Source: Vulcanisaeta souniana JCM 11219 (GTDB lineage: Archaea; Thermoproteota; Thermoprotei; Thermoproteales; Thermocladiaceae). Taken from it: a stretch of DNA of 64,000 bases. A program made the position numbers and the translations under genes. Positions 2,896 to 7,495 of the stretch are shown here, piece after piece. The stretch's first letter is position 1; every line of letters starts with the position of its first letter. The DNA lies in contig NZ_AP026830.1 in assembly GCF_026000775.1 (NCBI RefSeq), positions 1,759,056 through 1,823,055 of the forward strand. The letters are read 5' to 3'. The notes under the pieces are model-generated. The model had not been told where the DNA came from. It worked only from the letters and a program-made list of their open reading frames with translations, and searched no databases.

Positions 2896-3714
2896 TTAAA
2901 TACGACTAAATAATTTATTTATGTCCATAAATTCATGAAGAATTTTTAAAATTACAAATAAATTAGGCAAAGAGTTGTACCACCTATTACCGAGGTAATT
3001 GACCACGTAGGAAAGACATCCAGGACACAATAACCAATTGGGCTCCCTATTACCATAATTAACATTCAACAGTAATAGACCATACGGCGACGCAGGAGGA
3101 ACAGGCCTTTTAACCTTGAATTCTATTAAATCCCTCAGTTCATCGATTGATAGGGTGCCAAGCCCAACCATCCTAATCGCATTAACAATCTTCCTAATCA
3201 TCTTATTCCTGAACCCCCTGCCAGTAATAATAAGCACTAGGTAATCACCATACCTCTCAATATTAACACCGTTTATCATCACTGTGGTCGGCACACCCCT
3301 CTCCTTAACCTGGAAATTCGACAGGTCATGAACACCCACAAACAATTCCGCCGCACCCTTCATTAAATCAACATCCTCATAAAGCCAGGGCATTACGTAA
3401 ATATACGTCCTAGAAACCGCAATCTTCGCATTGAATTCATCATTTACCTCAGCCCATGCCCAAACCCTTAAACCATGCGGTAACCTCGAGTTTAACATCC
3501 CTGGTGTCAACTTATGACCATCAGAGAATTGTATCGAGACCACATTACCAACGGCACTAACCCCAGGGTCAGTCCTAGATGCCTTACTCAGTGTGAAGTC
3601 CTTTACAAATCGTCTAATTGCCCTCCGTAGATAATACTCAATTGATCCAGTATTACCTGTAAACCCATTAAATAGGGAACCATCATAGAACACCTTGAAT
3701 GCAATCGTAACCAT
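2896..3714 (-). CDS. truA: tRNA pseudouridine synthase, TruA family
   Basis: Converts uridines of the tRNA anticodon stem-loop to pseudouridine. The TruA signature is clear: an N-terminal strand with 'FKVFYDGSLFNGF', then 'SRTDPGVSA' with the likely catalytic Asp at residue 49. Further on is the second-domain hallmark 'GRGFRNKMIRKIVNAI', followed by 'PVPPASPYGLLLL'. I place the start at ATG 3714 because TruA proteins begin directly before this first strand. An upstream in-frame ATG at 3804 would add 30 unrelated residues and overlap the TusA gene. Encoded length is 272 residues, slightly longer than many TruA proteins. Confidence 0.85.
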   Translation of the reverse strand: MVTIAFKVFYDGSLFNGFTGNTGSIEYYLRRAIRRFVKDFTLSKASRTDPGVSAVGNVVSIQFSDGHKLTPGMLNSRLPHGLRVWAWAEVNDEFNAKIAVSRTYIYVMPWLYEDVDLMKGAAELFVGVHDLSNFQVKERGVPTTVMINGVNIERYGDYLVLIITGRGFRNKMIRKIVNAIRMVGLGTLSIDELRDLIEFKVKRPVPPASPYGLLLLNVNYGNREPNWLLCPGCLSYVVNYLGNRWYNSLPNLFVILKILHEFMDINKLFSRI

Positions 3715-3778
3715 TAAAAGGATTGTAACCTGTGGTATTAAAACTGTACTGTATTTGAGCAATGGGATAGTGGTGATA

Positions 3779-4015
3779 TTAGGAAATTTCATGGGACTTT
3801 GCAACGACTATTCTATAATTATTCTCATCCAATTGCACTGTCTCCTTAATTTCCACATTAAGTATCCTCAAAACCCTCTGTAGCATCATAAAGCATATGA
3901 AGTCATCAGTGAGTATTGTTAATACGGATCCAATCTCCGCCTTGGATATTGCGTTGGATACCACGTTTATCGGTGTTGGGCATTGAAGTCCCCTAACATC
4001 AATTGTGCTGTCCAT
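3779..4015 (-). CDS. TusA/SirA-family sulfur carrier (first copy)
   Basis: A 78-residue TusA/SirA-type protein. The family carries sulfur as a persulfide on a single Cys. The signature is complete: 'DVRGLQCPTP' with the CPxP Cys at residue 12, then a beta-alpha-beta-alpha-beta pattern ending in a strand with 'RIVVAK'. It is the downstream-most gene of the minus-strand cluster with the SelD-like fusion (gap about 155 bp), the second TusA and DsrE, which suggests a persulfide relay. Family membership is firm; the acceptor (tRNA thiolation, molybdopterin, or cytoplasmic sulfur oxidation) is not shown by the sequence. Confidence 0.85.
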   Translation of the reverse strand: MDSTIDVRGLQCPTPINVVSNAISKAEIGSVLTILTDDFICFMMLQRVLRILNVEIKETVQLDENNYRIVVAKSHEIS

Positions 4016-4170
4016 ACTTCATGGCCTAGCATTAATATTTACTTAAATTAAATATGATTATATGCACATTTTTAATAAACAAGATAGACTTAAAAAGCTG
4101 ATCTGTGGAACCAGGTTATTTAATTAGGAATGGAAAGAAACAACACAATGCCATACGGCACCTATTTTCA

Positions 4171-5910
4171 TTACCTTACCTCAAAATCAACAAATTCACC
4201 ATTGTATTGCCTAACTACGTAATTAATCATATCAACACTGCCGACAGGGCTTGACCTAATCCATTCAATAAGTGCCATTGCGTCCTCTCTACATCCCTCA
4301 ATCACAACCTCCACAGAACCATCAGGCAAATTCCTGACATACCCAGTCAGACCAAAGGACAGGGCTTGCCTACGTAGTGTTGGTCTAAAGCCAACGCCTT
4401 GTACATCACCAAAAACCCTAGCCTCAACCCTAACCTTCTCGCACCTAACCTGCTGTCTCCTTAAACTTCTCAATACATCAATATCCATCGTTAACTTCAT
4501 TAATAAAGACTTACTTGTAATGTATTTTGTTATGTAATCAGGTACAAAGAGTCTCCCTGTTCCCTTGCCTATGACATCACCAATAACCATGGGTTGTGTA
4601 CCCTCAATTCCCCTTAAATCCTTAATTATTGAGTCAATAACGTCTTTGCTGGCCACTATGGCTATTGCGCCGTTTGTACCTGCCGTGGCATCAGTAATTA
4701 TGTAATGCCCAGCGGCAAAGCTTGCGATCTCGGGGGAAATCAGTGGTATATTGTGTAGGGCAATGTCCACATTGGCCTGCTCCGCTAATTCCTTAAACAC
4801 GAATATGCCAGGTCCTGATATATCTATTGTACCTGCTATGTGCTCGTCATCCTTAAATGACTCACCGAGCTCGGGTAGGTATTTATTCAATACCTTGGCT
4901 ATTTCGATATTAGGTCTTGAGAGAGTTTCCATTATTTTAACCTTCAATTTCTCAAGTTCATCAATACCCATGACATCACGTTCCAATTCATCCATTAATG
5001 ATTCATCTACGTGCGCCGTCAGATACGTAGAAATAATTGAAAGTTCACCAAACGGCCTAGTAACGAGAACCTTAAAGCCAGCCTTAACATTATCGTAAAA
5101 CATCGGTGGTTCCTTATCCAATAACCCAACAACGGTGGCACCCATTAGTAGGTAATTAACCCTTGGTTGCGGAACATCAGAATCTAATTGAAAGTTCCAT
5201 TTACCACTGAACTCCCTATAGTTATTCATCAACTTCTCCCTTAACTCCTCAATTGGCGCATCATAGACTGGGTATATCGTTATATCCCTATAGACGCCCT
5301 TTATGAACAGGTCATTCAATGCATTGCTTACGGCAGTAGCCACCTGCCTATAACTGCCTGGGTCCTCCGTTGGGTCAATTATTTGTATAGTATCATTATT
5401 AGCCAATAAATATTCATTACCTGTCCTTGTACCTATGAAATCAATTAGGGCGAATTCAGCCTTCTCCCTGGTCGAAACTATTGAGTGACCCTTACCAATC
5501 CTAATCTTAGTTGGCGAAGTCCCCAATTGCCTGTATAGGCTTATTATTGAGCCCGCGAATTCCCTTGGCGATGATGCACGTGCCTGATGCACCTGCAGTA
5601 GTAGTAATGCTGTTGATGGGTTGATTTTTGTCAGTTCATCCTTATTTATATTATTGCCATCTATGTTATATATTCTCCTTGTCAATGAATAGTCACCATT
5701 GCTCCTTAATACGGCTACGTCCTCCCTGGGTTGAATCTCTATGTTAAGCTTGGCTATTTCATTACCAACCAATGAGAGTGCCGGGTATAGTATATCGTAT
5801 AAATCAACCTTAACCGAACAGCCAATGGCAAGTGATAGCAGGTTAATACCTAATCCCAGGTACTTATCTAACCTCTCCCTGAAGTCCCTAATCCTCTCAT
5901 TACTCAACAT
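4171..5910 (-). CDS. SelD-like AIR-synthase-related protein fused to acylphosphatase
   Basis: A two-domain protein. About 480 residues resemble selenophosphate synthetase and related AIR-synthase-fold ATPases: an Asp/Pro-rich strand 'IIDPTEDPGSYRQVATAVSN' followed by 'ALNDLF', like the SelD/PurM segment before 'ALSDxYAMG', and later 'IDISGPGIFVF', like the 'TDVTGFGL' block. The N-terminal Cys/Sec-Lys pair of true SelD is not evident. The last 90 residues are an acylphosphatase domain with 'VFGDVQGVGFRP' (catalytic Arg) and 'GYVRNLPDGSVEVV' (catalytic Asn). The start is ATG 5910, 2 bp after the TusA stop, with a GGTGAT ribosome site; a longer start at 5943 would overlap TusA. The context suggests a role in sulfur or selenium activation. 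True selenophosphate synthesis is unproven. Confidence 0.75.
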   Translation of the reverse strand: MLSNERIRDFRERLDKYLGLGINLLSLAIGCSVKVDLYDILYPALSLVGNEIAKLNIEIQPREDVAVLRSNGDYSLTRRIYNIDGNNINKDELTKINPSTALLLLQVHQARASSPREFAGSIISLYRQLGTSPTKIRIGKGHSIVSTREKAEFALIDFIGTRTGNEYLLANNDTIQIIDPTEDPGSYRQVATAVSNALNDLFIKGVYRDITIYPVYDAPIEELREKLMNNYREFSGKWNFQLDSDVPQPRVNYLLMGATVVGLLDKEPPMFYDNVKAGFKVLVTRPFGELSIISTYLTAHVDESLMDELERDVMGIDELEKLKVKIMETLSRPNIEIAKVLNKYLPELGESFKDDEHIAGTIDISGPGIFVFKELAEQANVDIALHNIPLISPEIASFAAGHYIITDATAGTNGAIAIVASKDVIDSIIKDLRGIEGTQPMVIGDVIGKGTGRLFVPDYITKYITSKSLLMKLTMDIDVLRSLRRQQVRCEKVRVEARVFGDVQGVGFRPTLRRQALSFGLTGYVRNLPDGSVEVVIEGCREDAMALIEWIRSSPVGSVDMINYVVRQYNGEFVDFEVR

Positions 5911-5912
5911 GA

Positions 5913-6149
5913 TCACCGCTTCCTGACCACAATCCTCCAGCAATTACCCTCCTGCCTAACCTCAAGTACTTCATGACCAAGTTTCCTAATTGCCGCTGGA
6001 ACATTATCGCAACTCGCTGGGTTATCAACGAGAACCTCCATTACCGAACCACTACTTAGATCCTTAATCGCCTTTAGTGTGAATACCTGCGGGTATGGAC
6101 AGGCATAGCCCCTGGCGTCCAATATGTATCTGTCATTATTTACCTTCAT
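5913..6149 (-). CDS. TusA/SirA-family sulfur carrier (second copy)
   Basis: The second TusA-like protein of the cluster. With the start at 6149 it has 78 residues, and the persulfide Cys (motif CPYP) is at residue 17 after 'LDARGYA'. The C-terminus has the expected strand 'CWRIVVRKR'. The frame is open to an ATG at 6227 (26 more residues), but the extension has no TusA counterpart. A TATA-like TATATAAAG at about 6179-6187 fits transcription starting just before 6149, so I prefer the shorter form. It ends 2 bp before the SelD-like start, so the two are tightly coupled. The two TusA copies differ enough to have separate partners. Confidence 0.8.
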   Translation of the reverse strand: MKVNNDRYILDARGYACPYPQVFTLKAIKDLSSGSVMEVLVDNPASCDNVPAAIRKLGHEVLEVRQEGNCWRIVVRKR

Positions 6150-6221
6150 GAGTTTCACAGCAGTACTATTGACGTACACTTTATATAGCATTAAATCAGT
6201 GCTGTTTTTGCACAGTTTAGT

Positions 6222-6240
6222 ATTCATTTAAATTTAAATA
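6222..6240 (-). promoter_or_regulatory. AT-rich element shared with the ArsR-type gene (copy 1)
   Basis: Read on the minus strand this is TATTTAAATTTAAATGAAT, lying in the gap between the DsrE-like gene and the second TusA gene. The same 19 bases occur at 6957-6975 on the plus strand, upstream of the ArsR-type regulator. A nearby TTTGAATAA word also accompanies both copies. It could be a TATA element of the TusA promoter, a regulator site, or both. Confidence 0.45.
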
Positions 6241-6253
6241 AATTTATTCAAAT

Positions 6254-6688
6254 TCACAGCGAGACCGACTTATCACACCACTCAAGCAGCTCAATGTACT
6301 TACCAATCATGACCAACTCATCTACGATGCCCAGGAAATCACCCAAGCCAACCTTAATACCAGCCAACTCAAAGGGCTGGGTACAGACATAAACCCTTAC
6401 ACTGCCAATCTCCTTGGCTTGCCTAATCATCTCATACCACTTGAAGAATCTACCATTAATAACGGCATTATTATATCCACTAACAACATTATTAATCAAC
6501 CCACTCAGTGCGGGATCACCGCTGTAATTGCTGATCTTATCAGCATAATCCTTAAGGAAAGCAAAGGATGCCGATTGCGTGGCATATATTGCTACATCAT
6601 GACCCATACTCACTGCGCCAAGGACTATCGTGCCTAATGCAAGCAACTTATCCAATGCCGAACTAGTGATTAAAATCAATATCTTCAT
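6254..6688 (-). CDS. DsrE-family protein
   Basis: A 144-residue DsrE/DsrF-like protein, a family of sulfur-handling proteins that often pass sulfur to or from TusA. It starts with the typical strand 'MKILILITSS' and has a central single Cys in 'VYVCTQPFELAGI', the likely persulfide site, and a C-terminal helix with a further Cys. The frame is open to a GTG at 6703, but a TATA-like box (TTAAATA near 6721-6728) puts transcription start after that codon, so ATG 6688 is preferred. It lies upstream of the second TusA on the same strand, with an AT-rich 104 bp gap to the preferred TusA start. Confidence 0.75.
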   Translation of the reverse strand: MKILILITSSALDKLLALGTIVLGAVSMGHDVAIYATQSASFAFLKDYADKISNYSGDPALSGLINNVVSGYNNAVINGRFFKWYEMIRQAKEIGSVRVYVCTQPFELAGIKVGLGDFLGIVDELVMIGKYIELLEWCDKSVSL

Positions 6689-6817
6689 TGCCGAACCACT
6701 CACCCTCCATAGATAGGGGCTATTTAAGGCAAGGGGAATTATGCAATCTCTACACGGTAAAAATGCAGTAGGTAGGTATAAATTTTAAAGGGGGCACTGA
6801 TTGAGCTTAATTAATGC

Positions 6818-6913
6818 CTATTCCTTATCTTGTACCTCTTGTTTGTTCTTATCCTCAGTCTTCATATCCTCCTTACTCTTCTTCTTGGTCGTGTAAGGAC
6901 TTGGCATACACAT
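6818..6913 (-). CDS. Possible 31-aa lysine-rich small protein
   Basis: A short ORF in the gap between the DsrE-like and ArsR-type genes, reading MCMPSPYTTKKKSKEDM and continuing with mainly Lys, Glu and Asp to a stop at 6818. Support is mainly its promoter: a TTATAA box at 6944-6949 would start transcription near 6920, a few bases before the ATG at 6913. Composition (about a third Lys, plus acidic residues) suggests a disordered peptide. No family is recognised, and it may be non-coding. A shorter start at 6907 is possible. Confidence 0.35.
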   Translation of the reverse strand: MCMPSPYTTKKKSKEDMKTEDKNKQEVQDKE

Positions 6914-7054: not shown

Positions 7055-7495
7055 ATGATGGTAGTTAGTGAACTCCTTAAAGACTTAATAATACCCTTCC
7101 TAGCACTACTCGTGGGCAAGATGAGCGATGATGATTTAGCAAATAATGATAGAATGAGCGATAATACGCCCTCTGATGGAGTGATACATACATGCCCCAT
7201 GTACGCAAGAATTAGGTGGTTACTCGTTGAATCAAGGGGTGGCCCCATAAGGTCTAAGATATTGTTACTACTCAGGGAGAGACCAACCAATATCAATAGG
7301 ATTGCTAAGGAATTGAACATGGACTATAAAACAATTAAGCACCACCTGGAACTACTTGAGAAGAACGGCCTAGTTCAAAGACTTGGCTTGAAGTATGGGG
7401 ATGTTTATTTCATTAATGATAATGCCTATAAGCACTGGGATGAGTTGTATGTTCTAGTTAAGGAGAGTTTAAAACTGGATTCTAACTCTCGGTAA
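7055..7495 (+). CDS. ArsR-type winged-helix transcription regulator
   Basis: A 146-residue DNA-binding regulator. The ArsR-like winged helix is in the second half: 'ARIRWLLVE', 'RSKILLLLRERPTNINRIAKELN' (split here by a turn) and the recognition helix 'MDYKTIKHHLELLEKNGLV', then the wing 'YGDVYFIND'. In front is a hydrophobic stretch (residues 7-20) and a Cys just before the first helix, possibly for sensing. TTTAAA at 7027-7032 lies 26 bp before the ATG, fitting a leaderless transcript. It is divergent from the TusA/SelD/DsrE cluster and is its most likely local regulator (inference). Its 3' end overlaps the convergent gene by 14 bp. Confidence 0.75.
   Translation: MMVVSELLKDLIIPFLALLVGKMSDDDLANNDRMSDNTPSDGVIHTCPMYARIRWLLVESRGGPIRSKILLLLRERPTNINRIAKELNMDYKTIKHHLELLEKNGLVQRLGLKYGDVYFINDNAYKHWDELYVLVKESLKLDSNSR

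Follow-up and report, generated by a model that had tools for sequence, protein, structure and literature searches.

Analysis of a 64,000-nucleotide stretch of DNA from Vulcanisaeta souniana (hereafter the window), which belongs to a genome consisting of a single 2.43-Mb contig, showed that a 579-residue protein encoded there is almost certainly the Thermoproteales form of the SelD-like family NF038049 joined to an acylphosphatase (AcP). Both domains of this fusion are present beyond chance, and comparisons with related archaea tie the two enzymes to each other and to TusA. The gene is one of four consecutive minus-strand genes between positions 3779 and 6688, which by our reading of the open reading frames follow one another in the order dsrE, TusA-1, SelD-like/AcP fusion and TusA-2 (Table 1). 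The TusA-TusA-DsrE setting described in the initial annotation, which was made from the sequence alone, was thus found in full.

Table 1. Positions of the cluster's genes, domains and motifs within the window.
Feature	Positions	Strand	Remarks
31-codon reading frame (MCMPSPY...)	6818..6913	minus	upstream of dsrE; same frame in L003, L012 and L059
DsrE-family protein	6254..6688	minus	ATG start; alternative GTG start at 6703; PF02635, 25.5 bits
TusA-1	5913..6227	minus	probable start at internal ATG 6146 (5913-6146); CPYP; PF01206, 78 bits
SelD-like/AcP fusion	4171..5910	minus	579 aa from ATG; 590 aa from upstream TTG 5943
SelD-like domain	4489..5886	minus	residues 9-474; NF038049, 687.9 bits
Catalytic Cys31-x-x-Lys34 motif	5809..5820	minus	by alignment with E. 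coli SelD (Cys17/Lys20 equivalents)
AcP domain	4177..4425	minus	PF00708; catalytic Arg509 and Asn527 (ATG numbering)
TusA-2	3779..4015	minus	CPTP motif; PF01206, 53 bits; 155 nt after fusion

Both TusA proteins match PF01206 and carry a CPxP motif (CPYP and CPTP), and the best NCBIfam match of TusA-1 is of the YedF type, at 70 bits under a cut-off of 79. The DsrE protein exceeds the PF02635 cut-off of 22.7 bits by a modest margin, and its candidate active-site cysteine lies within the sequence VYVCTQ. Only 2 nt separate the TusA-1 stop from the ATG of the fusion. Three other loci of the Vulcanisaeta group (L059-L061) likewise have a DsrE gene two places ahead of the fusion, and a counterpart of TusA-2 is present in L059 and L060 and absent from L061.

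Several features border the cluster. The 31-codon frame upstream of dsrE opens with the block MCMPSPY, shared with the three loci listed in Table 1, and continues into a Lys/Glu-rich tail; it may encode a small protein with cysteine at position 2, and it is possibly the first gene of the cluster, a place that we do not count as established. A TTTATAA stretch upstream of this frame is common to the window and L059. Further upstream, on the opposite strand, lies a gene for an ArsR-family helix-turn-helix regulator (7055-7495, plus), by which the cluster might be regulated. On the other side, the longest frame of a TruA-type pseudouridine synthase (2896-3804, minus; 128 bits against a TruA cut-off of 143) shares 26 nt with the end of TusA-2, and beyond it follows a radical SAM protein with a B12-binding-like N-terminus (599-2152, minus; TIGR03960, 226 bits, under its cut-off), in an order that is kept in L059 and L060.

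The initial annotation had read the fusion as a SelD-related, AIR-synthase-like domain followed by a complete acylphosphatase, and family models and folds bear out both halves. The SelD-like part matches NCBIfam NF038049 (SelD_rel_HyperS, 'SelD-related putative sulfur metabolism protein') at about 687 bits, with a cut-off of 250, over residues 20-485 of the 590-residue frame and positions 2-464 of the 465 in the model. Every SelD model falls far under its cut-off on this part, the next-best being NF010705 (43 bits against 291) and TIGR00476 (18 against 125); the HypE model TIGR02124 gives 13 bits against 252, and the Pfam AIRS models give no score on the fusion protein. The relation to SelD therefore rests on the NCBIfam family, on catalytic motifs and on fold. 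In an AlphaFold2 model of the fusion (mean pLDDT 87), the closest folds are those of selenophosphate synthetases (3fd5, E 1.2e-16), human SEPHS1 and bacterial SelD, followed by HypE and ThiL. It was fold comparison alone that matched: sequence searches with the SelD-like part, or with its profile, gave no significant hit among solved structures. Alignment of the N-terminal part with a family other than the AIR synthases was not seen. The AcP domain scores 80.5 bits against PF00708 (cut-off 22.5) over residues 507-589 of the 590-residue frame, and the last 90 residues of the model match the Sulfolobus solfataricus acylphosphatase at about 1.0 Å.

In the window domain, both catalytic residues of the SelD motif (Cys and Lys) are present, as are a metal-binding Asp and a catalytic Asn; profile comparison with E. 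coli SelD (NC_000913) confirmed equivalents of Asn87, Asp91 and Asp227. The family has an insertion of its own. When residue conservation was scored across 52 members of the SelD-like family, the catalytic Cys was kept in all 52, and the equivalents of the SelD Lys, Asn and Asp in 48. The four exceptions (L087-L090, family code f53) retain the Cys, but the Lys, the NND motif and the Asp that binds metal are missing from them. The genes of this divergent branch adjoin others that we read as putative ATP sulfurylase and PAPS reductase genes, neighbours that point to assimilatory sulfate reduction.

Matches to the family over cut-off occur in 57 of the 398 genomes of the phylum, and our survey of gene neighbourhoods covered 52 loci with a full-length SelD-like gene; the labels Thermoproteaceae, Sulfolobaceae and Caldivirga used for the surveyed genomes are our reading of kinship codes and matching named contigs. 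AcP is fused to the SelD-like protein in 16 of these loci, encoded separately alongside it in 14, and in neither state in 22, and is thus not universal in the family. In the 14 loci with a separate gene, AcP is the very next gene downstream on the same strand, with gaps of -41 to +9 nt. All fused genes fall into a single clade, to which SH-aLRT gives full (100%) support, and the adjacent-AcP loci belong to a neighbouring lineage in which they make up almost one group, a single member having no AcP. A fused clade together with an adjacent AcP gene is the classic operon-to-fusion pattern, which strengthens the case that the two enzymes are functionally linked. It could nevertheless be argued that AcP, a generic small enzyme of which most genomes carry another copy elsewhere, is a housekeeping domain with a function of its own, fused by chance, leaving the SelD-like part to act alone in sulfur metabolism, and the 22 loci without a linked AcP agree with this view. 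We consider it distinctly unlikely: several archaeal families show the linkage, both as a fusion and as the next gene, and the catalytic Arg and Asn are intact in every one of the 32 domains compared, which were fused, separate or from reference enzymes. The SelD-linked AcP is the only one found in five genomes (G129, G262, G277, G282 and G389).

TusA is a constant companion of the fusion. A TusA gene lies within 300 nt in all 16 fused loci, as the initial annotation's link between the fusion and TusA implied, as well as in 13 of the 14 adjacent loci and 8 of the other 22, and in most fused loci it overlaps or abuts the SelD-like gene. Nine of the 22 loci without a linked AcP also have no TusA nearby. 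Other partner genes differ between lineages: some Thermoproteaceae loci have DsrE genes and genes of the dsrA type, and there are rhodanese, SQR-like (type III) and DUF1641 genes in Sulfolobaceae, and a TusA-TusA-rhodanese neighbourhood in marine Thaumarchaeota. We also compared co-occurrence in 29 genomes of the order, of which 20 have the SelD-like gene and 9 do not. The adenylylsulfate reductase gene aprA was found in 19 of the 20 and in 4 of the 9 (Fisher p 0.005, uncorrected for phylogeny). For dsrA-type genes the corresponding figures, 17 of 20 and 6 of 9, did not differ significantly, and a link to dissimilatory sulfite reductase was rejected on this distribution, despite the dsrA genes that adjoin the SelD-like gene in some Thermoproteaceae.

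The resemblance to SelD raises the question of whether the enzyme handles selenium. It might be a genuine, if divergent, selenophosphate synthetase that works in a selenium trait not yet described, with a YedF-like TusA and a YeeE/YedE-type transporter as its uptake module: the nearest families and folds are those of SelD, TusA-1 scores best against YedF, and a transporter of this type precedes TusA-SelD-like(-AcP) in five deep lineages (L080, L083, L084, L085 and L086) and is also found near the SelD-like gene in marine Thaumarchaeota. The best model for these transporters is the selenium YedE/FdhT, under its cut-off, and the thiosulfate model is likewise under cut-off. We give this explanation little chance, given the very low SelD scores, a set of partners that includes the sulfur genes dsrA, SQR and rhodanese, and the markers of selenium use: SepSecS, archaeal SelU and YqeB gave no match over cut-off in 28 family-bearing genomes, the window's own among them. 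The marker search consisted of these three and was positive in the M. jannaschii control. A known selenium trait in the host was rejected on this absence, which also leads us to favour action of the SelD-like enzyme on sulfur rather than selenium, as judged from gene content.

A further possibility, suggested by analogy with the orphan SelD of selenium-dependent molybdenum hydroxylases, is that the SelD-like enzyme might provide molybdenum hydroxylases with their terminal sulfido ligand. In six Sulfolobaceae loci (L051-L056) the gene adjoins one for the large subunit of a glyceraldehyde-dehydrogenase-type molybdenum hydroxylase. However, four Caldivirga-type genomes have the SelD-like gene and no molybdenum hydroxylase, four Thermoproteaceae have the hydroxylase and no SelD-like gene, and the two showed no tie among the 29 genomes of the order. 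This distribution largely refutes such a role, which we regard as highly improbable.

We propose, as a tentative reading to which we give somewhat less than even weight, that the fusion uses ATP to phosphorylate sulfur delivered by TusA, giving an intermediate at the level of thiophosphate, and that AcP hydrolyses a phosphorylated product. The SelD-like domain would bind ATP-Mg, and Cys31 would take sulfur from TusA, itself loaded via DsrE or rhodanese. The sulfur would then be phosphorylated as SelD does selenide, a reaction that for sulfide is hypothetical in a SelD-type enzyme, giving monothiophosphate or a protein-bound S-phosphate. Hydrolysis of this product, or of a by-product, by the AcP domain would make activation be followed by release or proofreading. 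The observations from which we infer this chemistry are the family, the fold, the SelD catalytic residues, the intact AcP active site and the proximity of TusA. Acylphosphatases act on carboxyl phosphates, so that action on an S-phosphate is an extrapolation. The stronger claim, that a SelD-type enzyme converts TusA-borne sulfur to thiophosphate or another phosphorylated sulfur species as a new metabolite, with a dedicated AcP as the obligate second step, is possible but doubtful.

The substrate preference of AcP is the attraction of a different chemistry, in which a carbonyl or amide oxygen would be activated via an acyl- or imino-phosphate, as in PurM, PurL and HypE, and replaced with sulfur from TusA to give a thiocarboxylate or thioamide, AcP clearing misdirected acyl phosphates. 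The AcP partner would then make direct chemical sense, as ordinary acylphosphatase chemistry; the fold is that of the AIR-synthase superfamily, with HypE among the top matches, and of the 30 loci with a fused or adjacent AcP, 29 have TusA. On the other hand, the conserved SelD-type Cys-x-x-Lys is absent from other AIR-synthase families according to Li et al. 2014 (PMC4210487), and no carboxylate or amide acceptor is consistently encoded near the surveyed loci; we judge this chemistry unlikely. If phosphorylation of TusA-borne sulfur is the correct reading and its chemistry is shown, archaea would possess a donor of activated sulfur that parallels selenophosphate, and acylphosphatase, whose physiological role Li et al. 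called unknown (PMC4210487), would acquire a function. The comparative data already narrow the field, as the AcP partner is fixed by fusion and adjacency, and neither selenium traits nor molybdenum hydroxylases are required. The control genome S. acidocaldarius contains a homologue over cut-off. This organism is genetically tractable.

The family and the fusion are not new, having been described in 2014 and being covered by the existing curated model NF038049. Li et al. reported the SelD-like family in Sulfolobales and Thermoproteales, with AcP fused to it in all Thermoproteales, SirA/TusA-like and peroxiredoxin/DsrE-like genes as neighbours and an association with adenylylsulfate reductase, and put forward thiophosphate synthesis as a hypothesis; the example in their Figure 4 is Vulcanisaeta distributa (PMC4210487), to which the window organism is closely related. 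The domain reading of the initial annotation stands, and its suggestion that the pairing could be a distinct route of sulfur activation is not new, the same fusion and thiophosphate proposal having been in print since then. A 2026 review still treats SelD-like function as speculation (PMC13188914), and literature searches for later work returned no experimental paper on the family. The thiophosphate idea is thus that of Li et al., to which we add operon-to-fusion evidence for the AcP partnership. The window locus itself is essentially as they described; the new elements are the adjacent separate AcP, the degenerate f53 branch and a wider distribution, which takes in metagenome-assembled genomes labelled Acidilobaceae and Desulfurococcaceae, together with marine Thaumarchaeota, where the Desulfurococcales had been said to be without the gene (PMC4210487).

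Comparison with known systems places the fusion among several of them. With the family of Li et al. it shares the AcP fusion and its TusA (SirA-like) and DsrE-type neighbours. With SelD and SEPHS1 it has in common the fold, the catalytic Cys-x-x-Lys and the equivalents of the metal-binding Asp and catalytic Asn; in contrast to them it is about 100 residues longer, scores far under the SelD cut-offs, has an AcP partner, and occurs in hosts without a known selenium pathway, as judged by three markers in 28 genomes. HypE and HypF likewise pair an AIR-synthase-fold enzyme with an acylphosphatase-containing protein. Unlike HypF, however, the fusion has no YrdC or Kae1-like domains, and unlike HypE its SelD-like domain, as we read the sequence, has no cysteine near its end to serve as a C-terminal acceptor, the HypE fold match being weaker than that to SelD. 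The YedE-YedF-SelD module of bacterial and methanogen selenium genes is mirrored by the transporter, TusA and SelD-like genes of five related loci, whereas the window lacks the module as such and the transporters of the related loci fall under both the selenium and thiosulfate cut-offs. The DsrE3A-TusA pair of Metallosphaera cuprina, also a thermophilic archaeon, similarly comprises carriers of the TusA and DsrE types, but those carriers are linked to an Hdr-like complex (PMC4175335), while the carriers in the window are linked to a SelD-like enzyme.
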